Under the pieces are notes generated by a model, which worked only from the letters and a program-made list of their open reading frames with translations, made no database searches and was not told where the DNA came from. Below are positions 578 to 51,166 of a DNA stretch of 64,000 nucleotides, piece by piece (the stretch's first letter is position 1; each line of letters begins with the position of its first letter). Source of the DNA: Bolinopsis microptera (Eukaryota; Ctenophora; Tentaculata; Lobata; Bolinopsidae); contig NC_087083.1 of the NCBI RefSeq assembly GCF_026151205.1, positions 3,362,536-3,426,535 on the forward strand, in the 5' to 3' direction. Both the position numbers and the translations under genes were made by a program.

Positions 578-14885
<14,308 letters not shown>

Positions 14886-15400: not shown

Positions 15401-16704
15401 GATATTAAAATATTATGATGAATTGGAGTAATAAAGTTATTTCAAACAGTATGTATAATATATATATATACAATAAATTAAATTAAGTGATGCAATTGGC
15501 AGAGCACAATCGCAAATCCTGAGCAATAGATATTAGATATCATCTATTCCTCGTAGATCTTCTCCTCAGGTGTCCGGTTGAAGGAGAGATTGGATATATC
15601 GGATATATTGGAGTAATAAAGTGAACATCACTGTGTTTTAAAATTAAAATTATAATTAGCAGTGTTTAATCTGAACATCTTAGAAATTGACCTACACCTG
15701 AGGTGTGGACTGGAAACTTATGCTTCTGCAAGCATAAAATCTCAATAAATGGTATCATGGGGGTGCCAAATTGTCATTTGAATATGGAAAATTTTTTGAA
15801 AAACCTAAGGTATTAGCAAAATTGCTCGTTCAACTAAAGAAACACATGGTTTTAAAATTTTTATCAGTGAATCCCCTAGTTTACCTTTCTATTTGCTTAG
15901 GGGAGGGGGCACCACTGTGTACGAAATGGTTCAGACTAATAAAAGGGTCGATATCGAGTTTGGAGAACAGAGGGAGCCAGCTGGGAATGGATGGATTGAC
16001 AAGGAAAAAAAGAAAGGCTGCCAGTAATTGTATGACTATTTCCATTATTGAGACGTTTTTAATATTTAATTTAAGAGGGTTTTTAAAATTTTTATAGGAC
16101 TGGTTCACAGTGTGAACAGATTCCAGATTTATATAATTTTACACTGATATTTAATAAATGATTAAAAGAACCAATTTAAAAGTTGCCATACTAAAGCCTT
16201 TAGGTCCAAAAATATACCTATTATGTTCACTTAAAAACAACTCTAAATCAGTAGGCTATCACTCTATTAATGCACCACACCGCTACCTCCACAGCACTAA
16301 AAGTTATACAATAAATTCTACAATACTACTTTTGCATAGTGATGGAGACCGGTGTCCATACAAAACATTTACTAGGTTGCCGTTTGATTTGAGCAATAGC
16401 GAACAGCACGCACACTCCTTTTCCCCGTCAACTAAACCTATATCTAATCTATTTAAAGAGTGACAACCATACTACACATTGAATTAGGATACCTTTAAAT
16501 ATCAAATTGATTTATCGTAAACTTGTTTACTCTGTAATAAATGGCATAAAATTGAAATTTTGGTTTAACTGAGTAAAGTTGCAACCCCCACAGATTGTGA
16601 AATATGACATAGCTGAAATCGGGAAAACGTGAAAGGAGGTTTAAATTGTGTTTACTCACATTATATGATAAGATTGTATGATAAAATTGTATGTATAAAA
16701 TTGT

Positions 16705-17730
16705 ATGTATGACAGTTATTACATCAGTAACCCTGTTCGTTTCTTATACAAACGGTATGTAGATGATGCTGGTTCCTTAGCCAAATCCAGAGAAGAAGCA
16801 CTGGATATGTTACAACGCATAGCCGACCAGGATCCCGATAACAGAATCAAGTGGGAGATCGAGTTCCCGTCTACCCCTGCGGATTTTGTCCCGTTCCTGA
16901 GTACGGAAATCCGGATCGATGAGGAAGGAAAAGTGCACCACAGATTCTACAGGAAAACCCAGAACAAGGGGATAACATTACACCAGAAGTCACACCACCC
17001 GGACTCAGTGAAGGAGGAGTGTAAGAAGAACTTCTACCGTAATGCCACCATTGCTTCCTCAGGACCCCAGGAACTCGATCATTCAGTTAAGATCATCGAT
17101 GATCTCTTAAAGAAAAATGGACACCAACCTCTGAGTCATAACGCAAGGAACAGGAGGACTAGGAGAAGACGTCAAACCACACCTGACTCTGTCCCACTCA
17201 CCTTACCATTCATCTCTGGAACAGTTTGTAATAAGATTCGCAACTACATCAAATCTAACAAACTCCCCATCAGAGTTATTTTTACACCTGGTAAGAAGTT
17301 ACAGGACATCTTCTGCCGCTCTCGTCCACTGGATAAGAAGACTTGTGACCTTGGTAACCCTAACAATTGTGAGATCTGCCCTAGACTCACAGGAACAACA
17401 TGCTCAACAAAAGGAGCTATTTACTTAGTTACTTGCGAGTTATGTGGTAAGAGATACTGTGGGGAAACTGAGAGAAGCCTCCATGCTCGTCTGATGGAGC
17501 ACAGACAGGCTGCTAGGAATCCTAGAGCACATCCAGAGAATGGGGTTGGACAGCACTACGCATCTCTACATCCTAACCGAACCCCAGTTTTATCTTTTAA
17601 GTTACTTGATTTACAGAGTAAAACTGTTCGTAGAAAGATTGTAGAAGCGATGTATATATTGAGATTAAGTCCTGAAATGAATGATCGTTCTGAGTTGAGT
17701 TATTTGTACAAATATTTAGTCGATGTTTAA
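16705..17730 (+). pseudogene. Penelope-like reverse transcriptase C-terminus plus GIY-YIG endonuclease
   Basis: The frame opens at the RT palm motif RYVDD (residues 17-21) and continues through thumb-type sequence (FPSTPADFVPFLSTEI, KNFYRNATIA). A cysteine-rich linker (CDLGNPNNCEICPRLTGTTC) and a GIY-YIG nuclease follow: GAIYLVTCELCGKRYCGET, then the R of LHARLMEHR and E of KIVEAMYI. This order, RT then zinc-binding linker then GIY-YIG, is diagnostic of Penelope-like retroelements. Upstream RT motifs are absent, so the copy is inactive, though its 341 codons have no internal stop. Confidence 0.92.
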
Positions 17731-21808: not shown

Positions 21809-24800
21809 AAGTGTACTAACTGCCTGTGGGAGGTAGGGGTGAGTTTGAGTAGCTGTACTCGTTGTCTGACGAGTCGCTCTCGTCATTCTTGTCAGTGTCT
21901 TCTAGAGGAAAGTTGTGCTCCATCTCCGACTGGGCCAGTACAAATACCTGCCGGACAATGCAGAGCTAAAACATACACTATATACTATACATTACTATAC
22001 ACTACTATACACTACTATACCATATACATACACTATATACACTACTATACGCTATACACTATACACTCTAACTCGGGCATATACCAGTGATACCACAGTT
22101 ATACTCGAGAACATTCTCTTTTTCATAAAATAATTTAAGATTTAAGCGTTATATAACGGCGTTATTGGATCATTAACTGTCTTATTAAGAAAAGGTTCCT
22201 TTGCTGGCGACCTTCTGATTTAATAAATGCGATTATGGAGAGTCTGCTAATGTCAGCCTTGGAGTTGGAGCAACCTTTACGAAACCAATCTGAAATAATG
22301 GGTAAAGTAACCACTAATAAATACCTTGTCACTAGGACGGAGCTTAGCGTCGTAAGGTGGCGCTGTGTTCACATATCTGTCCTCATTGTCTCTACCATTC
22401 CTCCCTCTCTCCCTGCTGATAAGAATTGAATGATAGACTAGCAGGATCACTTGGCTCTTTATTTGGGTAGAAACTTCTGAGCAGCCGTATAAACCAGTCT
22501 AGAATAACAACTTTATTTCGAATAAAATATTTCATAACCATGTTTTGCGCGGGATTTCTTCAAATTCGAGTACAATTTTAGATCAGTTTATAGTACTGTA
22601 AGCAGTGTAAACACTACTGTTACCATGACAACACTACTGTTACCATGACAACACTACTGTTACCATGACAACACTACTGTTACCATGACAACACTACTGT
22701 TACCATGACAACACTACTGTTACCAAGACAACACTACTCAACATGAGGACTCTAACTAAATATAGTTAGACGACTCTAATTACTATATTTACTCGCTGGA
22801 GGTGGGGGATTTCTTGTTAGATCCTTTGTGTGTTTTCTTGTAGCAGCGGTAGAGACCGAGAGCAAGCATCGAGTGTCTTCTAAGTAGCATCTCGAATAGT
22901 TCCCCGTATACCTGGTCAGTGATAAATTAATCTACTTACTGCTTAGTTGCACCTATATACAACTATCAACCATGTAACAACTATGTAACAACTATGTAAC
23001 AACTATGTAACAACCATGTAACAACTATGTCACAACTATGTAACAACTATGTAACAACTATGTAACAACCATGTTACAACTATGTCACAACTATGTAACA
23101 ACTATGTAACAACTATGTAACAACTATGTAACAATTAAATTACCCTTATTCCAGAGAAGCGCTCGTCAGCTAAAGAGATCTGAGCTATTCTGCAGCTCAT
23201 TCTCGTCCTTAACCAAGGACGGAACTTGTTCAGACCTATTGCGATTCCACAATCATCTGGAAGAGAAAACAACTTTTAGTATTACTTTAATAATAGAGTT
23301 ATAATTGTTTAATAATGTTCGATTAAAGCGCCAATCAGAAATTCTTGATAAAGTGATACTCAATTTGGAGGAAAATGTACAAATAGAAATAACTTTGCGA
23401 AGGAGGAAAAAGTTTGCGGAGGGGTTTGATAAGGAGTTTGATAAGGAGTTTGATAAGCGTATATCACACGCTCATGTTTGCGATGCAAACATTATAGTGT
23501 GTCATGAGTTGGTTTTTTTAGATACAATTCATTAAAACACTGACCGAGGTCTGTGAAAGCCAGGTAACCAGGTAACCAGGTAACCAGGTAACCAGGTAAC
23601 CAGGTAACCAGGTAACCAGGTAACCAGGTAACCAGGTAACCAGGTAACCAGGTAACCAGGTAACCAGGTAACCAGGTAACCAGGTAACCAGGTAACCAGG
23701 TAACCAGGTAACCAGGTAACCAGGTAACCAGGTAACCAGGTTATTAAAACACTGACCGAGGTCTGCGAAAGCGTCGTCAGGGTCCTGGGAGTGAGAGTCA
23801 ATCCCAGTTATCAGAGTTCTGATTATCCTCATCAGCTTCTCATTGTAGAACGTCTGTAATTTTATAAAACATGTTAATTAGTAAGGATTAATTAATTGAA
23901 TAGACGTTGTAACAGGGTTGATGAATGAGGACAGTAGTGACAATATAGTATTCTTATATAGTGACTATGTGCCCTGTAAACTCCTGGCAATTTTGTTATT
24001 AGAAAAATGTGGTCCTTCAAATTCAATGGTTCATGCAATCATGTCATCCTCCATTATTCGGCGATAATTAAACAATTGTTGACGATAATTCAACCCTTTT
24101 CAAAATACACTCTGATATTTCAAAACTATGCAAAATCTTCGATTGTAATCCACAGAGCTCCGACTAAAGAATGTAATTACATGATTATACCTCATACGTT
24201 ACTATGATTCCTAATAAGTCACGTGTATTTACATCTACTGTTCAATGCACACTTAACATGGATAATGCTAATAGCTGGTCATGTGCTATCTGGTTAGGGA
24301 GTGGAGTCAAACAATACACAATACAATACAATACATTTGTAAATACAACATGCGCTATCTGGTTAGGGAGTGGAGTCAAACAATACACAATACAATACAA
24401 TACATTTGTAAATACAACATGCGCTATCTGGTTAGGGAGTGGAGTCAAACAATACACAATACAATACAATACATTTGTAAATACAACATGCGCTATCTGG
24501 TTAGGGAGTGGAGTCAAACAATACACAATACAATACAATACATTTGTAAATACAACATGCGCTATCTGGTTAGGGAGTGGAGTCAAACAATACACAATAC
24601 AATACAATACATTTGTAAATGTAAATACAACATGCGCTATCTGGTTAGGGAGTGGAGTCAAACAATACACAATACAATACAATACATTTGTAAATACAAC
24701 ATGCGCTATCTGGTTAGGGAGTGGAGTCAAACAATACACAATACAATACAATACATTTGTAAATACAACATGCGCTATCTGGTTAGGGAGTGGAGTCAAA

Positions 24801-27800
24801 CAATACACAATACAATACAATACATTTGTAAATACAACATGCGCTATCTGGTTAGGGAGTGGAGTCAAACAATACACAATACAATACAATACATTTGTAA
24901 ATGTAAATACAACATGCGCTATCTGGTTAGGGAGTGGAGTCAAACAATACACAATACAATACAATACATTTGTAAATACAACATGCGCTATCTGGTTAGG
25001 GAGTGGAGTCAAACAATACACAATACAATACAATACATTTGTAAATACAACATGCGCTATCTGGTTAGGGAGTGGAGTCAAACAATACACAATACAATAC
25101 AATACATTTGTAAATACAACATGCGCTATCTGGTTAGGGAGTGGAGTCAAACAATACACAATACAATACAATACATTTGTAAATACAACATGCGCTATCT
25201 GGTTAGGGAGTGGAGTCAAACAATACACAATACAATACAATACATTTGTAAATACAACATGCGCTATCTGGTTAGGGAGTGGAGTCAAACAATACACAAT
25301 ACAATACAATACATTTGTAAATACAACATGCGCTATCTGGTTAGGGAGTGGAGTCAAACAATACACAATACAATACAATACATTTGTAAATGTAAATACA
25401 ACATGCGCTATCTGGTTAGGGAGTGGAGTCAAACAATACACAATACAATACAATACATTTGTAAATACAACATGCGCTATCTGGTTAGGGAGTGGAGTCA
25501 AACAATACACAATACAATACAATACATTTGTAAATGTAAATACAACATGCGCTATCTGGTTAGGGAGTGGAGTCAAACAATACACAATACAATACAATAC
25601 ATTTGTAAATACAACATGCGCTATCTGGTTAGGGAGTGTAGTCAAACACTACAGAACAATACATTTGTAAATACAACAAACACTCTTAACACTACAGGAC
25701 ATGCGGGTTATCTGGACACTAGATATTATTGTATAACATAGTAACCATGGTAACCATGGTAACCATGGTAACCTTCACGCTACATGCTCTCTGGGAACAT
25801 AGTTAACATTAACACGTGTAGCAGAATCTCGCGTTTTACCAACGATAAGATAGAGTCGAGTACTGACACGATGAAGGCTTGGCCCTTAGCGAAAGGGGGT
25901 GAGGCGGTGCCGAGAGACTGGTCGCTGTCCCCTCGGTCCAGCACCATGAATTCTACATTCGTATCCTGCACTGCATGGGGCGCGTGTGAGGCGAGTGCTG
26001 CTTAATTAATTAAGAAGCTGACCAGATCCCCTTTTTTGGATTGTCTTAATCCTCAAACTTTGTTATTTTCATTTAAAATAAGTCAATAAGTGCTCTATCC
26101 GGTCAGCTTCTTTATAAAACTATCTGATAAATTTACCAAAGAGAGAATAGCGTCCAGCACGGAAACAATGAAGGCTTGTCCTCGAGTGAAGGGCAGAGCC
26201 ATGTGCAACCCCCTTTGTGAGGAGTCCTTCGACTTCTCCATGAATTGCACATTAGAATCATTTACTGTAAAAGGGTTATTCAAAATACATGCACATTAGA
26301 ATCATTTACATGCATCAAGCTAATTACATAACTTATTACATGCATCAAGCTAACTACATATCGCAAGATTAAAATGTCAAATATTGGAAAGGGTTTGTAC
26401 ACAATGTACAGGTGAAACCTATTTAAATAACGTTACCTATCTCCGAGATAATGGGTACTTGCATCCTGTTTCTCTTCGGTTTCTCGTTCAGAGCATACTT
26501 GAAGGAGCGTGGAGCTATCAGCTCAGTTCCACCGCAGCCTTTTATCTGCCACAAGTTTATTATTAGTGTAACTATGGTAACTAGTAGTGTAACTATGGTA
26601 ACTAGTAGTGTAACTATGGTAACTAGTAGTGTAACAGGGCATAATTAAAGGAGCGTGGAGCTATCAGCTCAGTTCCACCGCAGCCTTTTATCTGTCACAA
26701 GTTTATTATTAGTGTAACTATGGTAACTAGTAGTGTAACTATGGTAACTAGTAGTGTAACTATGGTAACTAGTAGTGTAACTATGGTAACTAGTAGTGTA
26801 ACTATGGTAACTATTAGTGTAACTATGGTAACTAGTAGTGTAACTATGGTAACTAGTAGTGTAACTATGGTAACTAGTAGTGTAACTATGGTAACTAGTA
26901 GTGTAACAGGGCATAATTAAAGGAGCGTGGAGCTATCAGCTCAGTTCCACCGCAGCCTTTTATCTGTCACAAGTTTATTATTAGTGTAACTATGGTAACT
27001 AGTAGTGTAACTATGGTAACTAGTAGTGTAACTATGGTAACTAGTAGTGTAACTATGGTAACTAGTAGTGTAACTATGGTAACTATTAGTGTAACTATGG
27101 TAACTAGTAGTGTAACTATGGTAACTAGTAGTGTAACTATGGTAACTAGTAGTGTAACTATGGTAACTAGTAGTGTAACTATGGTAACTAGTAGTGTAAC
27201 TATGGTAACTAGTAGTGTAACTATGGTAACTAGTAGTGTAACTATGGTAACTAGTAGTGTAACTATGGTAACTAGTAGTGTAACTATGGTAACTAGTAGT
27301 GTAACTATGGTAACTAGTAGTGTAACAGGGCATAATTAAAGGAGCGTGGAGCTATTAGCTCAGTTCCACCGCAGCCTTTTATCTGCCACAAGTTTATTAT
27401 TAGTGTAACTATGGTAACTAGTAGTGTAACTATGGTAACTAGTAGTGTAACTATGGTAACTAGTAGTGTAACTATGGTAACTAGTAGTGTAACTATGGTA
27501 ACTAGTAGTGTAACTATGGTAACTAGTAGTGTAACTATGGTAACTAGTAGTGTAACTATGGTAACTATTAGTGTAACTATGGTAACTAGTAGTGTAACTA
27601 TGGTAACTAGTAGTGTAACTATGGTAACTAGTAGTGTAACTATGGTAACTAGTAGTGTAACTATGGTAACTAGTAGTGTAACTATGGTAACTAGTAGTGT
27701 AACTATGGTAACTAGTAGTGTAACTATGGTAACTAGTAGTGTAACTATGGTAACTAGTAGTGTAACTATGGTAACTAGTAGTGTAACTATGGTAACTAGT

Positions 27801-30800
27801 AGTGTAACTATGGTAACTAGTAGTGTAACAGGGCATAATTAAAGGAGCGTGGAGCTATTAGCTCAGTTCCACCGCAGCCTTTTATCTGCCACAAGTTTAT
27901 TAGACTCCATCATCATTATCGCGGAATTTGGGAGAAATACAAATAATTTTGATAGTAATTACTTGATAGCCTATATATAAATAGCCTAATAATAACCTGC
28001 AGGAATGACAGAATAGTCTCCTTATCCACTAAGTTAGGATCCGTTGCTTTTCCCTGTAACGCGGAGGACAGGATAAGGCACATCAAGCAGTTCTGCACTC
28101 CCGCTGAAATAACGTCTTCTCTTCTCATGGGGGACCCCTGGTGGAGTTATGTGAATCTTTAGGAGCGAATATTATTGCCTTTTATTTAATGACAAGTTAC
28201 ATTAGAGTGAAAAACCCAGTTTTCTGTTAAAAGCAAATGTAGAGTGTACGATGATAAAATCATACCTCCATGAAATAAACGTCTTGGAAGTCGTTCAAAT
28301 CTTTCCACTCTTTTTCGATGTAGTCTTTTTGTCCCAAAAGTAGAACTTTTTTCACCTCCGCCATGGGAAGATTACTGCTTCTCAGCGGTAAGAGCTGAAA
28401 TTGGTGAGATTTGAAAATAAAGTGGCAAATGAAGTTGGAGTATTTGACATTGACAGTAACGGTGAGGGTGACAGTGACGGAATAGTTACTCACCAGATTC
28501 CTAAGCCCAACAGTGGGAGAGTTAGTGTCTCCAAAAACGCACACTATGATATGGTCAGTTAGAGTAGCCACATCTTCTTTCGTCTGAAATTGCAAGCCGG
28601 TAAATGACTGGTAACCATGGTAACCGGTAACTGACTGGTAACTGACTGGTAACCATGGTAACCGGTAACTAACTGGTAACTGTCAGATATATACTACTCA
28701 ATTGCTATAACGGAGATAAAAACAAAAGTAAAAGTAAAAGTAAAAGTAAAAGTAAAAGTAAAATTAAAAGTAAAAGTAAAAGTAAAATTAAAAGTAAAAG
28801 TAAAAGTAAAAGTAAAAGTAAAAGTAAAAGTAAAAGTAAAAGTAAAAGTAAAAGTAAAAGTAAAAGTAAAAGTAAAAGTAAAAGTAAAAGTAAAAGTAAA
28901 AGTAAAAGTAAAAGTAAAAGTAAAACTAAAAGTAAAAGTAAAACTAAAAGTAAAACAATTTATGAAGGTACCATGGTAACGTCGTCCAGAGCACATGGTT
29001 CCCGCCAATGATAAGCCCCTGTTCCATCTAGCGTCAGTTTCTGGTCGTACTTAGCCCGTTCTTCTTTACCAAGTGTCTTCCAAAATGGCACCTGGTTAGG
29101 AACATCCGGACCAGGTCTAGGTGGCATTTCTGTGAATCCCTCCGTTAACTCAAAACTGTGGGGAAACTTATATAGAGACCTCTTCCTTCATATAAACAGA
29201 ATCACTGCAATTATTATATGCTAATAGCATGTTAATTATGCTAATTATGCTCATTATGCTAATAACATGTTAATGAAATAAAAAGTACTTTAAAAAGTGG
29301 ACATACTTGTTAACAGTGCGATATTGTCCGTCAAACTGTCCGTCAGGAACAGGAACAGACAGCCCGGTCCTTATGAACTTGGCTGAGGAGAAAAAACTTG
29401 TTAAAAATTGTTATTTATTAAATAATAGCAGAGGGGTTAACGTAATTCAAATAAAATTGTTAACGTAAAAATAGTTTATTATATATAGCAGAGGGGTAAC
29501 AACTCAGATTTAACATGACATTCAGGGTAGCTTTTACATTTCAAGAAGCAGATTAGTAAATTAATTAATAACTGTATTCAAACTGTCGAATGGTAAGATG
29601 CTCAAATGGAAACTTATAATTAAAGTTGGGACTTACTTTTATCGCAGTTGCATTTGGATATCTCGTTGTTAGATGTATACTCGTGACACTGGTAGCAGTA
29701 GAAGGCTGCACTGTAAATTAATTATGTAATATAATATGTAATTAATGTAATTATCTGAGATATTTATTAACTGGGATGAAACGAGGTTATAGAAAGAAGA
29801 AATGAGCGAGGAAATGAGCAAAGAAATGAGCCAGATGGTTACCATATGAGAATGGTGGATACGTTAACTTATTGGCAGTTAACCTACCTTTTAACTGCTT
29901 GAGGGTTTTGAGCGATGAATATACCCCTACTGTTTTCAGAGAACCTAAAAATACTAGGACTAGGATTAAAGAGGATGCCAGAGCTGTCAGCATTAGTTTC
30001 CACCTCCACTCCTATCAGGAGAATGTGAAGCTTTATCAGACAAATCTCCGCCACCATTGGGAAACTCATTCCCACGAAGTCACTACTCATAGCCCCAGTG
30101 TAGAGCTCATTGGAGGCCCCGAACCCATACTCGTACTGCCAGTGGTCCCGTACGTCGTTAGACGGGTTCTGAATGAGGGAGCGTTATTATTGTGAAGAGC
30201 TGAAAACGATTTACACAAGTATTTTGAAAGCTCCTGCTAATAAAATCCTTTCATATATCACTTATATGTTTTAAATATCCCCCTCCAGGTTATTATTGTG
30301 ATGGGGTTCAGTGGCGTAACTAATCACATAATTTGTCTAATTTAAGGGAGGGCGCTAAAAGGGGAGGGGGCGCCAAAAGGGTAGGGAGCGCCAATAGGGG
30401 AGGGGGCGCTAAAAGGGGAGGGGCGCTAAAAGGGGAGAGGGCGCTAAAAGGGGAGGGGGCACTAAAAGGGGAGGGGGTGCATATAGGGGGACGCTAACAT
30501 GCAAAGTTACGCCACTGATGGGGTTTAGACGGTTATCAATCTAAGCCGCGAACAAGTATCTATATTGCATTGCTGTATTGTATAATGTATAATGTATATG
30601 TTCTATTTGTGAACGGTTCAAATCAAATGGAGTTGTTAGTGAGATAAAAGATTGAGATAAGGATTTGAAAGTGTATGAATGTGAATGCTAACATTATAAT
30701 TGCCGGGCTGGAAGGAACTCATCATGATGAGATTAGCCACCATGGTGCTGAAACCAGGACACAGACAACTCTTTCCGAGCAGTCCTAACTTTAGCTCGTT

Positions 30801-31271
30801 AATACATATCACCTCGTCACCGTGTACTTTATTCCAGTCTGGCACATTGAACAGATGCTCCTGAACGGATACATGTTGACTGGGAGGAGAAATTAAATAT
30901 AAGCAGTGTTAGAATACAATGTTTTATATAATATATATAATCAGATAAACAGATTCGTTTTTGAAATTGTAATGAAAATATTTATAAAGTAAGATTGAAA
31001 TTGATAAAAAGCACCTCATTGTGGTAGTTTAGTATCTGGATGATGACTCGTACACAGGCTCGGAAGTTCTTTATAGATATCACCCTGAATACAAACAACG
31101 TGTTACAATGAGAAACTACACTTACTTGAAGTAAACTAGTAACTATAACACTTACTTATAGTTGTACACAGAAACTATTAACTACACTTTATACTTAGTT
31201 GTACACAGAGATTCAAGATATGAGCACAAATTTGTGCAGGGGCCATGCTAATCATCTCTGTATCGTTCCAA

Positions 31272-31304
<33 letters not shown>

Positions 31305-34300
31305 GTGAGGATAACGTATGTAGGGTTATAGCTTATAGAATATAGGGTTAATGTTATAACTTATAGAGTTATATAATATAGGGTTAATGTTATAACTTAT
31401 AGCCTCTCACCTGAGAATATTAGCGGCGTCCTCTGCGTCAGGTTCGTGCGAGTGCTTGTTTGCAATTACCAGGCACGCTTTAGCTGTGTCACACTGCGGC
31501 AAGCTGCATTAAACTCTTTAAAATCATTTTCTTTTATACTTATTCGCAAAATAAATTATTGTGACGCTCTCTAAATCTAAATTAGCTATTAGAACCGCCA
31601 ACTCCGTCCAGCTCATTTGTTGAATAACCAGATATCCAATAAACCGTTGTATTGTAAAAATAGCTTGTAAGTACTATTATTGAAAGTATTTTGTTGCTGA
31701 GTTTCCTTGATGATTAGGTAATTAGCATGGTAACGCTAGTCGTTACCATAGAAACACCTAGTGTGTAGTTTACCTTGACCCGCTGTAAGTCTCCTGACCC
31801 TAAAGGACTGCCCTGGAAGTACTGACACCGGTAAAAATGTCGGTGCATTAGATTCTGTAATTCTTCTGGTGGTGGGGTACTGAAACGAAATGTTCAAATC
31901 TCACTGTGCAAATCTAGTTGATTTTGTAATATCTGACAGATAAATGTTCTAAGCACTTAAACATATGGATTTGAAACAAACCGAACGAAACTTACGGATT
32001 TAAAAATACGGCAGTAGTTTCTTGGTTTTCGTTTTCCGGATGTAGAAAGTCGCGCATAAAGTTGCTGACAGTACTGGTGGTTATATAACCACTCACAATT
32101 ACGTGACTGAGGGGAGTTAGTTGATTAAATGAGAGAGTTACCATGGTAATACTACTAGTTACCATGGTAACACTACTAGTTACCATGGTAACATTACTAG
32201 TTACCATGGTAACACTACTAGTTACCATGGTAACATTACTAGTTACCATGGTAACACTACTAGTTACCATGGTAACATTACTAGGTACCATATAGGTATC
32301 ATGCTACAGAGTGAAATTAATGGAGAAGAAAATGTGTAATCACCTTGAGTGAGTCAAGGTTTATAAAGCAGATAGCATAACACACGTAATAATATCTCAT
32401 GAGATTAAACAGAGTCACATTAAACAAGCATATCCTGCAAAATCATATCTACAAACCCCGCACAAAAAAGATGCATCAAAATCAAGTATGTATATCTGCC
32501 AAAACTCTCTTACGATTACCTAAGGAACATGTTGCTAATGGATATGTTGCTAAGGAGTAAGGAACATGTTGCTAAGGAGTAAAGAACATGTTGCTAAGGA
32601 GTAAGGAACATGTTGCTAAGGAACGCCTCATTCTATATCAAGGATGGATCTTCAGAGTACGCGGAGTTAAAAAATAATGGGGTTTTATAGAATCATAAGA
32701 ATTAAATATAGGCCGGATAGCGTTTATACGCTCTTAAATTATAGAACTAAAATGTATTTTAAAAATTCCAATAATGTCAATTTTTGAAATGTCCAATTTC
32801 AGTTTTTCAAAATTGCAATTGAACATTGGTTCCCCCCTCACTATCATCGCATTTAGTTTTCTATATATATATATCACTTCTATAATCTATATATGAAGAT
32901 ATATCACTTCTATAATCTGTATAATATGAAGATATCACTTCTATAATCTATATATCACTTCTATATATGAAGATGTAAATATTTACCTAGATCTACTATC
33001 ATCGTATTCCCCGAGGAAGGAAGGTTGTTTATGAAACAATTCTACTACTGCTGGCCCGAAAGAAGCAAATACAGCCTAAAACAAGAGGTGAAGGAAGTGT
33101 TAGCAGTAAGCAGAACATAAACACACAAACAATGCTGAGCATGCTGTTTAGCAGGCTGCTAAGGTGTGGTTACCATGGTAACATCACTAGTTACCATGGC
33201 AACACTACTAGTTACCATGGTAACACTACTAGTTACCATGGTAACACTACTAGTTACCATAGAAACACAGTAGGTGCAGTTAAAAAGAGAAGATATAATA
33301 GGTGGAAATTAAAGATAAAACAAAGCACCGAGCCATTAAGCAGCCTGCCAAGCAGTAAAACACACATGCACTATGTTTCCATAGTAACATAGCAAACAGA
33401 GCATGCACTATGTTTCGTAACATAGCACACAGACCATGCACTATGTTTCCATAGTAACATAGCACACAGAGCATGCACTATGTTTCCATAGTAACATAGC
33501 ACATAGAGCATGCACTATGTTTCCATAGTAACATAGCACACAGAGCATGCACTATGTTTCCATAGTAACATAGCACACAGAGCATGCACTATGTTTCCAT
33601 AGTAACATAGCACACAGAGCATGCACTATGTTTCCATAGTAACATATCACACAGAGCATGCACTATGTTTCCATAGTAACATAGCACACAGAGCATGCAC
33701 TATGTTTCCATAGTAACAAAGCACACAGAGCATGCACTATGTTTCCATAGTAACATAGCACACAGAGCATGCACTATGTTTCCATAGTAACATAGCACAC
33801 AGAGCATGCACTATGTTTCCATAGTAACACCCAGTTACCTAGACTTAGAATCGTCGTATTCGCCCAAAAAAGAGGCAGGTTTTTGGGAGAGTTCCACGAG
33901 GGCCGGCATAAACGAGGCAAAAACTGCCTAAAATAGAAAATATTTTGCAATTTGGTAGTTTTTACAGCTCCGAATTATTTGCAATCAGACCTCTAGCCTG
34001 TAATGTGCTGTTTGGCTGACTACGACTTGAATAGTTACAATAGTTGAAAGAAGATTCACAATAATACATATTTACTTGGAGTAAGTAATAAATAAAATAA
34101 CTGGAATTAATGAACGTACCAGTCCGATTATGATAATAAATATAACGATTATTTGGCTTTCTCGACTACTGGGGTGTTTGTCACCGTACCCAATCGTTGA
34201 TAAAGTAATCTGCGGAGTTGTAATTTTATTAAATATATAAAAATATATAATTATTAATTATATATATACATATAATCATATGCTGATCAACTTTATAATT

Positions 34301-37300
34301 TCTAATTGTAAAATGTGATATCATGAAAATTAAGGCAGAAAAGTGAAAAAATTAAAATTTGTATTCTTTTAACTGTAAGATGAATGCGAAGTTGAATATA
34401 TATGTATGTATACTTACAAATAAAAAATAAAGTGACTCCCAAAACGTTAAACCGCAAGGAGATTTTGTACACTGGGTGTTCTGCGCTGACATATTATCAA
34501 CCTGGGATAATTTACTGTTCTAGTAAGCTCCGAATAAAGTATGTTTTTGAAAAGTAAAATGAATTGAAGTAAGCAAAGCTTTGTCAAATCTAATAATATC
34601 AGCAACTCTGCAAAAGGAGGAGTTTATTGAAGAGTTAAATGGTTCTTGTATCTTGTTGTTCAGTGATTACTTCATAACATAATGGTTCTTGTATCTTGTT
34701 GTTCAGTGATTACTTTATAACATAATGGTTATTGTATTTTGTTGTTCAGTGATTATTTTATAACATCTCACCAGAAAATAAAGTCCCCCAGCAGTTAACC
34801 AGAAGCTAACACACACAGACACACAGACAGACTACTAGTAGTACTCACCAGAAAATAGAGTCCCCCGGCAGTTAACCAGAAGCTAACACACACACAGACA
34901 CACAGACAGACTACTAGTAGTACTCACCAGAAAATAGAGTCCCCCGGCAGTTAACCAGAAGCTAACACACACAGACACACAGACAGACTACTAGTAGTAC
35001 TCACCAGAAAATAGAGTCCCCCGGCAGTTAACCAGAAGCTAACAAACTGACAGACACACAGACAGACTACTAGTAGTACTCACCAGAAAATAGAGTCCCC
35101 CGGCAGTTAACCAGAAGCTAACACACACACAGACACACAGACAGACACACAGACACACAGACACACAGACAGACTACTAGTAGTACTCACCAGAAAATAA
35201 AGTCCCCCGGCAGTTAACCAGAAGCTAACACACACACAGACACACAGACAGACACACAGACACACAGACACACAGACAGACTACTAGTAGTACTCACCAG
35301 AAAATAAAGTCCCCCGGCAGTTAACCAGAAGCTAACACACACACAGACACACAGACAGACACACAGACACACAGACACACAGACAGACTACTAGTAGTAC
35401 TCACCAGAAAATAGAGTCCCCCGGCAGTTGACCAGAAGCTAACACACACAGACAGACACACAGACACACAGACACACAGACAGACTACTAGTAGTACTCA
35501 CCAGAAAATAAAGTCCCCCGGCAGTTAACCAGAAGCTAACACACACACAGACACACAGACAGACACACAGACACACAGACACACAGACAGACTACTAGTA
35601 GTACTCACCAGAAAATAGATTCCCCCGGCAGTTAACCAGAAGCTAACACACACAGACACACAGACAGACTACTAGTAGTACTCACCAGAAAATAGAGTCC
35701 CCCGGCAGTTAACCAGAAGCTAACACACACAGACACACAGACAGACTACTAGTAGTACTCACCAGAAAATAGAGTCCCCCGGCAGTTAACCAGAAGCTAA
35801 CACACACAGACACACAGACAGACTACTAGTAGTACTCACCAGAAAATAGAGTCCCCCGGCAGTTAACCAGAAGCTAACACACACAGACACACAGACAGAC
35901 TACTAGTAGTACTCACCAGAAAATAGAGTCCCCCGGCAGTTAACCAGAAGCTAACACACACAGACACACAGACAGACTACTAGTAGTACTCACCAGAAAA
36001 TAAAGTCCCCCGGCAGTTAACCAGAAGCTAACACACACACAGACACACAGACAGACTACTAGTAGTACTCACCAGAAAATAAGTCCCCCGGCAGTTAACC
36101 AGAAGCTAACACACACACCTGACACACAGACAGACTACTAGTAGTACTCACCAGAAATAGAGTCCCCCGGCAGTTAACAGAAGCTAACACACACGACACA
36201 CAGGACAGGACACCGAAAGAGTCCCCCGGCAGTTAACCAGAAGATAACACAAACACAGACAGACTACTAGTAGTACTCACCAGAAATAGTAGTCCCCCGG
36301 CAGTTAACCAGAGCTAACACAACACAGACACACAGACAGACACACAGACAGACACACAGACACACAGACAGACTACTAGTAGTACTCACCAGAAAATAGA
36401 GTCCCCCGGCCAGTTAACCAGATGCTAACACAACAGACACCAGACAGACACACAGACACACAGACACACAGACAGACTACTAGAGTACTCACCAGAAAAT
36501 AGAGTCCCCCGCAAGCTACAAAACAGAAGCTAACACACACACAGACACACAGACACACAGACACACAGACAGACTACTAGTAGTACTCACCAGAAAATAG
36601 AGTCCCCCGGCAGTTAACCAGAAGCTAACACAAACACAGACACACAGACAGACTACTAGTAGTACTCACCAGAAAATAGAGTCCCCCGGCAGTTAACCAG
36701 AAGCTAACACACACAGACACACAGACAGACTACTAGTAGTACTCACCAGAAAATAGAGTCCCCCGGCAGTTAACCAGAAGCTAACACACACAGACACACA
36801 GACAGACACACAGACAGACTACTAGTAGTACTCACCAGAAAATAGAGTCCCCCGGCAGTTAACCAGAAGCTAACACACACACACAGACACACAGACACAC
36901 AGACAGACTACTAGTAGTACTCACCAGAAAATAAAGTCCCCCGGCAGTTAACCAGAAGCTAACACACACAGACACACAGACAGACTACTAGTAGTACTCA
37001 CCAGAAAATAGAGTCCCCCGGCAGTTAACCAGAAGCTAACACACACACAGACACACAGACAGACACACAGACACACAGACAGACTACTAGTAGTACTCAC
37101 CAGAAAATAAAGTCTCCCAGCAGTTAACCAGAAGCTAACACACACAGACACACAGACAGACTACTAGTAGTACTCACCAGAAAATAGAGTCCCCCGGCAG
37201 TTAACCAGAAGCTAACACACACACACAGACACACAGACACACAGACAGACTACTAGTAGTACTCACCAGAAAATAGAGTCCCCCGGCAGTTAACCAGAAG

Positions 37301-40300
37301 CTAACACACACAGACACACAGACAGACACACAGACAGACACACAGACAGACTACTAGTAGTACTCACCAGAAAATAGAGTCCCCCGGCAGTTAACCAGAA
37401 GCTAACACACACACAGACACACAGACAGACACACAGACACACAGACAGACTACTAGTAGTACTCACCAGAAAATAAAGTCCCCCGGCAGTTAACCAGAAG
37501 CTAACACACACACAGACACACAGACACACAGACAGACACACAGACACACAGACAGACTACTAGTAGTACTCACCAGAAAATAGAGTCCCCCAGCAGTTAA
37601 CCAGAAGCTAACACACACAGACACACAGACAGACTACTAGTAGTACTCACCAGAAAATAGAGTCCCCCGGCAGTTAACCAGAAGCTAACACACACACACA
37701 GACACACAGACAGACTACTAGTAGTACTCACCAGAAAATAGAGTCCCCCAGCAGTTAACCAGAAGCTAACACACACAGACACACAGACAGACTACTAGTA
37801 GTACTCACCAGAAAATAGAGTCCCCCGGCAGTTAACCAGAAGCTAACACACACAGACACACAGACACACAGACACACAGACACACAGACAGACTACTAGT
37901 AGTACTCACCAGAAAATAAAGTCCCCCGGCAGTTAACCAGAAGCTAACAAACTGACAGAGAGTCCTGGAGAGGTTTAGCATTTTGTGGGAGGAGATTAGC
38001 TTCACAGCTGCTACGTCATCACCGAACCAGTTTAGACGCACTGCTCGAATAAACCGCAAACCTGGGGTCATAAACACATTTACAATTTATACATATTATA
38101 CATTGTACATTGTACATTGTACATTGTACATTGTACATTGTACATTGTACATTGTACATGTAGTTACATAACATAAACACATTTACAATTTATATAGTAA
38201 AATTACATAATCAGTGTCTTATTCATAAGATCGTATTATTCATAATTGAGAATTGTTTGAATAAAAGTTAAAACGCATTCAGTGAAGTTATATCATATCT
38301 CATAGTAGTAGTAGTAGTAGTGAAGTTAAAACTGAAATAAAAACACTGTGTTGCCATGGTAACCAGCTAATCGTACTCACCAAGCCACGTAGTACCCAAA
38401 TACATTGTCAGAAATGCCGGAGGAATTGTACAAAAATCAATTAGCGAATTCAGTTCAACCCAAAAACTTAGTTTGTCTTTAGCAACAATACACTGAAATG
38501 TGGTTATTTAGCTTCATTTCACCCCGAGTTATAACTTCATAACACACATTCACCTAATATTATACACAGTAAAATGTTCTCATTAATGGGTTTCGGAACA
38601 TTTCAATTGTAAGCAAATTTGGAAAGGTAATTGCGAATCAATACAAATTTGTGTAAGCAAATTTGGAAAGGTACTTACCATAACTGTGAATCGCCAGAGG
38701 AAAAAAATGTTACATATAAAATCTAAAATAACGCCTATAGCAGACCGTTCTATACAGCGTTCCAAACTCCTGAAATAGAGTATAAAATGTTAATAAATAT
38801 AAATTAAATAAATAATAAATATGTTACAAATTTGGAATGAAGTCCCTCAAAGACGTATTTTTTTGGAATCGAATTATAATTAGGTTATTTGCAATCTAAT
38901 ATAGAAAACCGGGAATAAAATAGAAAATGTTAACAAATTTAATTAAATGGTTATTCTTATTTGAATAAAAGATGGAGAATAGAAAAATCTAGTAAGGCTT
39001 ATTTATAACTTATAACTTATAACTTATAATATAATAAACTTTATAACTTATAACTTATAACTTATAATATAATAAACTTTATAACTTATAACGTATAATA
39101 TAACTTACTCAGATGTGTCTATAAGGTATAATATTATCGCCACTATAGTGAATAGCATCGTCAACCACGTCTGAAATACACAGTGATAACAACAGAATGT
39201 CTCATAGTTAAACAACTTTAACTCACTTTCACGCGCAGACTGGCAGTGTCACGTGATCACTAGGTGCTATGTTACTATGGTAACATACCATGTTACTATG
39301 GTAACATACCATGTTACTATGGTAACATACCATGTTACTATGGTAACATACCATGTTACTATGGTAACATACCATGTTACTATGGTAACACACCATGTTA
39401 CTATGGTAACACACCATGTTACTATGGTAACACACCATGTTACTATGGTAACACACCATGTTACTATGGTAACACACCATGTTACTATGGTAACACACCA
39501 TGTTACTATGGTAACACACCATGTTACTATGGTAACACACCATGTTACTATGGTAACACACCATGTTACTATGGTAACACACCATGTTACTATGGTAACA
39601 CACCATGTTACTATGGTAACACACCATGTTACTATGGTAACACACCATGTTACTATGGTAACACACCATGTTACTATGGTAACACACCATGTTACTATGG
39701 TAACACACCATGTTACTATGGTAACACACCATGTTACTATAATGGTAACACACCATGTTACTATGGTAACACACCATGTTACTATGGTAACACACCATGT
39801 TACTATGGTAACACACCATGTTACTATAATGGTAACACACCATGTTACTATGGTAACACACCATGTTACTATGGTAACACACCATGTTACTATGGTAACA
39901 CACCATGTTACTATAATGGTAACACACCATGTTACTATGGTAACACACCATGTTACTATGGTAACACACCATGTTACTATAATGGTAACACACCATGTTA
40001 CTATGGTAACACACCATGTTACTATGGTAACACACCATGTTACTATGGTAACACACCATGTTACTATGGTAACACACCATGTTACTATGGTAACACACCA
40101 TGTTACTATGGTAACACACCATGTTACTATGGTAACACACCATGTTACTATGGTAACACACCATGTTACTATGGTAACACACCATGTTACTATGGTAACA
40201 CACCATGTTACTATGGTAACACACCATGTTACTATGGTAACACACCATGTTACTATGGTAACACACCATGTTACTATGGTAACACACCATGTTACTATGG

Positions 40301-50402: not shown

Positions 50403-50482
50403 AGACTTCCTACTTTTTAAATTGCTGACTGGATAATACTTTCAGCACTACTACATATATATAATATATATATTATATATAT

Positions 50483-50525
50483 CCATAGACACAGTGTTTC
50501 GTCCTATTAGGACTCATCAGTATGG
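50483..50525 (-). ncRNA. Hammerhead ribozyme (type I), Penelope-associated
   Basis: The minus strand reads CCATA, CTGATGA, GTCC-TAATA-GGAC, GAA, ACAC-T-GTGT, C, TATGG. This supplies every core element: the CUGAUGA and GAAA boxes, a 4-bp stem II, a short stem III and the GUC-type cleavage position (here U-C), with a perfect 5-bp stem I (CCAUA/UAUGG). Such minimal type I hammerheads are known from Penelope-like elements. It lies at the start of the endonuclease fragment but on the opposite strand. Confidence 0.88.
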
Positions 50526-51166
50526 CTCAAATCATCAGGGTTGGTTTTGCCGATATATTATTAATATATATATATAGAGAGAAAACAACTGCAAGCCAGA
50601 TCCAGGAACCAGACTCCGAAAGTCTAAGGGCGGTTCCCGGGGCTGTCGACCCAGGGTGCCATGCTTGTGGTAAATGTTATGTTTGTAAGCAAAATTTCCT
50701 GTCCCCCTGTTCCAATTTTAGTAGTCACCATTCTAAACAAGTTTTCCCTATAACTAAGTATATATCTTGTCAGAGTTATAACCTCATTTATTTAATGGAG
50801 TGTAAGACTTGTAAACAGTCGTATGTCGGTTATACTACCTCAAATCTCCCTAAGAGATTCTCTAACCATAAGAGTCACATAAAGAAAGGTATAAGAAGTT
50901 GTAAATTAGTTAACCATTTTTTAGATATTGATCATGATTTAGATTTTAGTACCATGGCCTCCTATAATTCCTCACTTAGTAAGCACCTTTCTGTCATTAT
51001 AGTAGACGCTTTAGTATTTGAGCCTAATATTAGTAAAGCAGACAAAGAAAAGGCTATGGAAGCTAGAGAGGGGTTCTACCAGACCCAATTGAAAACCCTT
51101 GAACGGTTTGGGGGTATGAACACCCTTGATAGTAACCATCTACTTTTTAAATCTGCCGGAGCTTAG
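50522..51166 (+). pseudogene. Penelope-type GIY-YIG endonuclease fragment
   Basis: Cysteine-rich linker CHACGKCYVCKQNFLSPC precedes LIYLMECKTCKQSYVGYTTS (GIY and YVG motifs), then LPKRFSNHKSHIKKG and a C-terminal EAREGFYQTQLKTL helix. Only about 30% similar by eye to the copy at 16705-17730, so a different Penelope lineage. The first codons are probably not a true N-terminus. Confidence 0.88.

Follow-up and report, generated by a model that had tools for sequence, protein, structure and literature searches.

A ctenophore gene for a BK (Slo1-type) channel carries, in the intron behind its S4-S5 exon, a tandem array in which the end of that exon and its splice donor are repeated again and again, so that the genuine donor is the first of 36 nearly identical ones. 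The gene lies on the minus strand of a 64,000-nucleotide (nt) stretch of Bolinopsis microptera DNA (RefSeq assembly GCF_026151205.1, contig NC_087083.1, forward-strand positions 3,362,536 to 3,426,535), which is hereafter called the window and within which positions are counted from 1. We think it likely that the array is a minisatellite born of a tandem duplication straddling the exon-intron junction, and that it is tolerated since exon definition picks the exon-proximal donor. On the whole it looks like an ordinary mutational by-product tolerated by splicing, and a timer role, raised in a first-pass annotation of this DNA, is not supported.

The BK gene was recognized by exon-by-exon alignment of human BK, followed by alignment of protein P0041, which placed 1084 of its 1111 residues in an open joined frame and differed from the gene at 8 of those 1084. 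The S4-S5 exon is exon 6 in the P0041 model; taken alone, it has weak sequence support in the PDB (best E 0.00063, to BK channels). The intron behind it is 3,408 nt long, and 3,143 nt of this (~92%) are array, so that the first-pass annotation rightly called it almost wholly array, just as direct reading and Tandem Repeats Finder (TRF) confirm the series of exon ends with near-equal donors that it had reported.

By direct reading and TRF, the array takes in 40 source-exon bases, overlaps the end of the S4-S5 exon (37910) and contains the genuine donor (Table 1); the extent first proposed, 34758-37909, was close and left out those copied exon bases. Each unit consists of GTGAGTACTACTAGTAGT, a TCTG/TG tract of varying length, TTAG, and usually 34 exon bases ending in CTG, with the last ~38 exon bases (TTAG plus 34) then followed by the intron start GTGAGTAC..., and units range in length from 77 to 129 nt. 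Splitting at GTGAG yields 36 donors, among them the genuine site at 37909 (35 GTGAGT and a final GTGAGA at 34771), so that the initial count of "about 36 copies" and "some 37" donors resolves into 35 intronic copies and 36 donors. Over the 9-nt donor, 34 of the 35 decoys match the genuine site, the exception being the final GTGAGA. A loose pattern running from TT[AT][GT] to the next GTGAG finds 34 pseudo-exons; 30 have a length of exactly 34 nt, and 18 share one identical sequence.

Other origins were considered for a repeat of this kind. Chance was rejected in view of the 35 near-exact copies, a transposon or introner family because GTGAGTACTACTAGTAG has just one further exact match in the genome (35 matches, 34 of them within the array), and an Rfam RNA element because at gathering scores the window gives only U6 and hammerhead matches, both elsewhere. 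The lone outside copy of GTGAGTACTACTAGTAG, in L028 at about 4989 on the minus strand (C12:3648508), has a similar TG tract after it and an exon-like 32-nt stretch ending in CTG before it.

The assembly itself bears on these counts. According to its published description, it was built with wtdbg and TGS-Gapcloser, polished with Illumina reads and pilon, and annotated with the help of RNA-seq and Iso-Seq (PMC10232365), and because single-base indels are dense between 36072 and 36600 in an assembly made this way, the exact copy number is uncertain in that patch. The patch is probably unpolished long-read sequence, perhaps where short-read polishing failed in repeats. Both the patch and the assembly procedure could be read as signs of an artefact, with the array or most of its copies coming from misassembled or badly polished long reads; this is very unlikely in our judgment, since most units are clean and differ in tract length and a few shared substitutions, unlike random read error, and since similar arrays recur at other exons, albeit within one assembly. 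Searching the assembly for COX1 gave no match.

Functionally, the array supplies many strong donors without convincing acceptors. Its acceptors were compared with 79 real ones from BK, calcineurin and five myosin loci, the S4-S5 exon being excluded. The genuine donor stands at the 78th percentile among 78 other donors, and the own acceptor of the S4-S5 exon is weak yet within the real range (13th percentile of the 79). All 35 TTAG acceptors of the array score under every real acceptor, as does the median of its 34 TAGTAG acceptors. Because the TTAG acceptors all score below the 79 real ones, the decoys have donors without a usable upstream partner, and the suggestion that the 34-base units are real microexons fails on the same comparison: cassette microexons would have a usable acceptor for each 34-nt piece and would keep the frame on inclusion, and neither is found here. 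The idea of the units as possible splicing decoys is supported. As for a genuine donor having to be "chosen from 37 equals," the donors are indeed equal as sites, but only the genuine one ends a 152-nt exon whose acceptor scores within the real range.

At the protein level, the computed products of all 35 decoy donors end at one shared premature stop, located in the first array unit. Adding the commonest 34-nt microexon, whether once or in any number up to six, leads by computation to a stop in every case. The channel frame, continued past the genuine donor, stops after ...VLASG in the next unit, so that the one-frame read-through into further SFWLTAGGLYFL copies described at first pass holds for frames opening in the TG tract and not for the channel frame. 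Two 33-nt pieces would leave the frame open, and of 144 combinations of an AG with the next donor, 26 keep the frame open, starting at TAGTAG (23), at TTAG (2, the 33-nt pieces) or at TGTCAG (1, unscored). It is these open combinations that speak for channel variants, also proposed at first pass, in which microexons or read-through would add extra S5-like segments. We hold such variants to be exceedingly improbable: the decoy donors and the commonest microexon in one to six copies all stop, 25 of the 26 open routes start at AG types whose scores lie below those of the real acceptors or at the lower end of their range, and a working channel would be unlikely with a second S5 end ahead of its pore.

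We posit that a tandem duplication across the S4-S5 exon-intron junction made the founder unit, and that this duplicate would then have grown and been homogenized by unequal exchange or slippage, with the TG tract presumably helping. During splicing, the spliceosome would use the real acceptor to define the 152-nt exon, which lets the exon-proximal donor win, and the decoy donors, having no acceptor, would fall outside any definable exon. Decoy use, if any, would be rare and would end in nonsense transcripts.

Proteins speak to which donor is used. P0041 joins AGGLYFL to VDNMSAQ, that is, donor 37909 to acceptor 34501; its source (label lgn) has contigs of at most 3,761 bases as against a gene of 19.5 kb, and because these contigs are far shorter than the gene, we take P0041 to reflect spliced RNA. 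The junction does not prove donor choice on the array-bearing allele present here. Two Bolinopsis microptera proteins were found that belong to the BK paralogue, at ~70% identity, and thus to a gene other than the array-bearing one; no protein named B. microptera for the array-bearing gene appears among the best 120 of 4,435 matches, nor among the candidates of a query ending in array read-through.

Were some transcripts to take decoy donors or microexons, they could be destroyed as nonsense transcripts, and array length or U1 availability could in this way tune BK dose. The single stop shared by all 35 decoys fits such poison splicing, and so does the human ABCA7 variable number tandem repeat (VNTR), for which the published account describes out-of-frame retention of a single unit, together with lower expression and more exon-19 skipping in association with longer alleles (PMC5954066). 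According to the same account, however, unit retention is independent of VNTR length (PMC5954066), and the read-through query matched no protein at E ≤ 1e-20 among 467 candidates, which is a weak negative. Poison splicing is unlikely as we weigh it; a modest poison effect of the BK array may nevertheless exist, because ABCA7 shows that such arrays can matter.

Exon-edge arrays are not unique to the BK S5 intron. An edge-copy test of 82 exons (29 BK, 8 calcineurin and 45 myosin, the first and last exon of each myosin alignment being dropped), with a cut-off of at least 28 bits and at least 10 exon bases, found copies at nine exon-sides, none of them inverted. These comprise six edge cases, four donor-side and two acceptor-side, and three exon duplicates, namely the two Ca-bowl exons of BK and one from myosin. 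In the adjacent gene for calcineurin A, exon 12600..12489 ends CCTTCAAACTAGAAT/GTAAGTACACC (here and below, a slash within a splice site marks the junction), and its end is repeated both next to the exon and in a distal array. On the acceptor side, all four decoy starts of BK exon 26545..26437 keep the AG acceptor, the two that were scored reaching 7.11 (equal to the genuine site) and 4.72, and a GTRAG donor follows within the next 150 nt at none of the four. Donor-side and acceptor-side copies alike lack the other half of the exon, since acceptors are weak in the BK S5 array and GTRAG donors are absent at the copies of 26545..26437. BK exon 26264..26137 also has a single, shorter copy, and one of the 45 myosin-head exons has an internal 80-nt copy. 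In L038, an upstream array reaching 16 nt into a Pfam-matched stretch, flagged by a cruder test on 38 stretches, was not counted once splice boundaries were drawn. Short-unit arrays stand on both sides of calcineurin exon 672-579, at 450-570 and 688-1248 on the minus strand.

Such captures arise in repeat-dense DNA: tandem repeats make up 39.6% of the window, and 56% of BK and calcineurin intron sequence as against 113 of 4,240 nt of exons. A rough calculation, in which the founder units of 47 repeat clusters were placed at random in the BK and calcineurin genes, predicts 1.5 captured edges of 70, and three arrays are observed to capture one (at BK 38061, BK 26545 and calcineurin 12600). Preferential targeting of donors was rejected, as distances from exons to the nearest repeat are similar on both sides and random placement suffices. 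Chance capture, followed by growth and homogenization, is enough and no special mechanism is needed; nor is a special function, because edge captures are to be expected occasionally in introns that are over half tandem repeat.

Several points weigh against a junction duplication that spread by chance and is tolerated by exon definition. Edge arrays occur at none of the 45 myosin-head exons (5 loci) and are thus not general to all genes; tandem repeats occupy 4-29% of these loci, so that exon-edge arrays accompany regions rich in repeats. Looser settings of the edge-copy search give short inverted matches, one each at 4 exon-sides in a set of 31 exons. Outside the patch 36072-36600, 5 of 34 columns are variable in 29 copies of the exon piece and 0 of 18 in the first intron bases of 29 copies, which is the direction expected of donor constraint, on too few events. 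The acceptor ranking is partly circular, since the ends of the exons behind the scoring matrix were partly set by an aligner in which pyrimidines and AG raise the score. Finally, P0041 has 8 differing residues, and the individual or species behind it may lack the array.

Evolutionarily, the BK paralogue at C12:11.69 Mb, on the same chromosome, holds S5 and the turret in one 139-nt exon where the array intron is absent, and has an S4/S5 intron that the array-bearing gene lacks, with the S3, pore and S6 exons equal in length between the two (112, 90 and 89 nt). An intron missing from the paralogue at the S5-turret position, and consisting so largely of array, could be a recent gain that arose or became established together with the exon-end duplication. 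In tandem-duplication intron gain as described, a single AG/GY site, once copied, supplies both donor and acceptor (PMC2891723). Here the donor CTG/GTGAGT and the acceptor CCAG/GTTGAT do not match, which argues against copies of one site, and the difference is accounted for just as well by a loss in the paralogue; an array-born intron therefore seems to us quite improbable.

The minisatellite can be set beside several known systems. In recursive splice sites (ratchet points), AG and GT adjoin after a pyrimidine tract; the BK intron likewise has repeated splice signals, but in most of its units 34 nt lie between AG and GT, so that the two are not side by side, and the acceptors score below the 79 real ones. 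Decoy exons that promote intron retention offer another likeness, in that non-productive BK sites could take up splicing factors and delay the genuine reaction. Tandem-duplication intron gain, as described, also involves a duplication taking in splice signals along with exon sequence, the surplus being spliced out (PMC2891723), whereas the BK array amplifies an exon-intron junction inside an intron whose acceptor is unrelated. Literature searches on exon-boundary minisatellites, donor-bearing repeats and Bolinopsis tandem repeats gave nothing closer than the VNTR in ABCA7 intron 18, whose 25-bp unit is described as intronic and repeated 12 to about 427 times, whose opening two bases form the donor of exon 18, and whose effects on splicing and expression were measured (PMC5954066). 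By that account, it too abuts its exon, starts with the donor GT and repeats the donor in each unit, and splicing from the following donor brings in one further unit with a frameshift; the BK unit differs in carrying 38 nt of coding exon and has similar arrays at several exons of one region. Thus, the known kind is the donor-bearing exon-junction minisatellite, and what is new is the coding sequence in the unit and the recurrence across a region.

This recurrence probably extends to nearby genes. Downstream of the window, 190 kb of sequence includes a 26-bp array and a 70-bp array that both resemble exon-end arrays. The former (concatenated coordinates 76918-79657, C12 about 3439-3442 kb) has 86 AG/GT sites by one pattern, with donors near the 99th percentile and weak acceptors; it looks like a row of recursive splice sites, sharing their adjoining AG/GT but with low-scoring acceptors. 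The latter exists as two segmental (or unpurged haplotype) copies (concatenated 154279-160033 and 220168-221644), with 77 donors in one and 20 in the other by one pattern, and its exon differs between them by 2 synonymous changes in 219 nt, the protein being identical; array length thus moves freely, since donor numbers diverge where the exon copies are nearly identical. The exons at both arrays are open frames without database support: a Pfam scan of five short exon peptides from neighboring arrays gave no family for any, and a PDB search with the 73-residue exon of the 70-bp array gave no match. A bolder proposal, to which we give a small probability, would have the introns of this ctenophore grow time and again by exon-edge minisatellites, donor-side and acceptor-side alike, and the resulting sets of identical splice sites would be distinguishable through exon definition alone; in its boldest form, some introns, such as the BK S5 intron, would owe their existence to arrays whose length tunes poison splicing of ion-channel and signaling genes.

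Elsewhere in the BK gene, on the minus strand, alternative S6 exons (33927-33839 and 33075-32987) both have open frames and splice sites, alternative Ca-bowl exons (26264-26137 and 25971-25843) are 79% alike over a 47-nt stretch, and P0041 uses the first of each pair; a U6 small nuclear RNA match within a BK intron (31197-31281) barely exceeds the Rfam gathering score. On the plus strand, open frames at 16699-17730 and 50489-51166 bear a putative resemblance to the GIY-YIG end of Penelope-like elements, and beside the second a type I hammerhead at 50481-50527 on the minus strand matches Rfam.

Table 1 Coordinates of the BK array, its gene and further exon-edge copies in the window
Feature	Position	Strand	Basis
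BK gene, span under P0041	21822..41359	-	spliced alignment, 28 aligned exons
BK S4-S5 exon, 152 nt, phase 0 end CTG/GTGAGT; last 38-40 nt are the array source	37910..38061	-	tblastn and spliced alignment
Genuine donor GTGAGT, donor 1 of 36, joined to 34501 in the P0041 model	37904..37909	-	donor list and spliced alignment
Tandem array: last ~38 exon nt, GTGAGTACTACTAGTAGT and variable TG tract; 35 intronic copies, donors 37808 ... 34771	34767..37949	-	TRF, unit split, donor list
Patch of units dense in single-base indels, unlike other parts of the array	36072..36600	-	direct reading and unit split
Unit retaining the exon's CTGTCAGTTTG ahead of TTAG; most founder-like unit	35005..35083	-	exact search, which matched nothing but 37958 (exon) and 35053
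Turret exon after the array intron (VDNMSAQ...LYFLF), 84 nt, phase 0, acceptor CCCAG	34418..34501	-	spliced alignment
Pore exon carrying TIGYGD	34120..34209	-	tblastn and spliced alignment
Acceptor-edge mirror case: start of BK exon 26545-26437 and its acceptor copied four times upstream amid 21-bp repeats	26437..27900	-	edge-copy search, scoring
Donor-edge case: end of BK exon 23853-23757 and its donor copied once beyond a (TTACCTGG)n array	23531..23853	-	edge-copy search
Calcineurin A exon 12600-12489: last 15 nt, GTAAGT and intron start make up a 29-bp unit; 3 donors, one of them genuine	12407..12600	-	alignment and repeat search
Distal array of the calcineurin A 29-bp exon-end unit, 16 more AATGTAAGT donors	9570..10335	-	repeat search
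Degraded copy of 20 nt that lie close to the end of calcineurin exon 8558-8413 (without donor), found again 94 nt downstream	8329..8558	-	edge-copy search

More broadly, the growth of tandem repeats can carry copies of splice signals and coding sequence into introns, where they may mislead gene prediction. The BK S5 intron amounts to a natural competition experiment, with 36 near-identical donors in series and a working channel from the first only, and offers an unusually clean test of splice-site choice among identical copies. In ctenophores, a candidate sister group to other animals according to the assembly report (PMC10232365), reliance on exon definition would thereby become readable from long complementary DNA reads that are already there or simple to produce.

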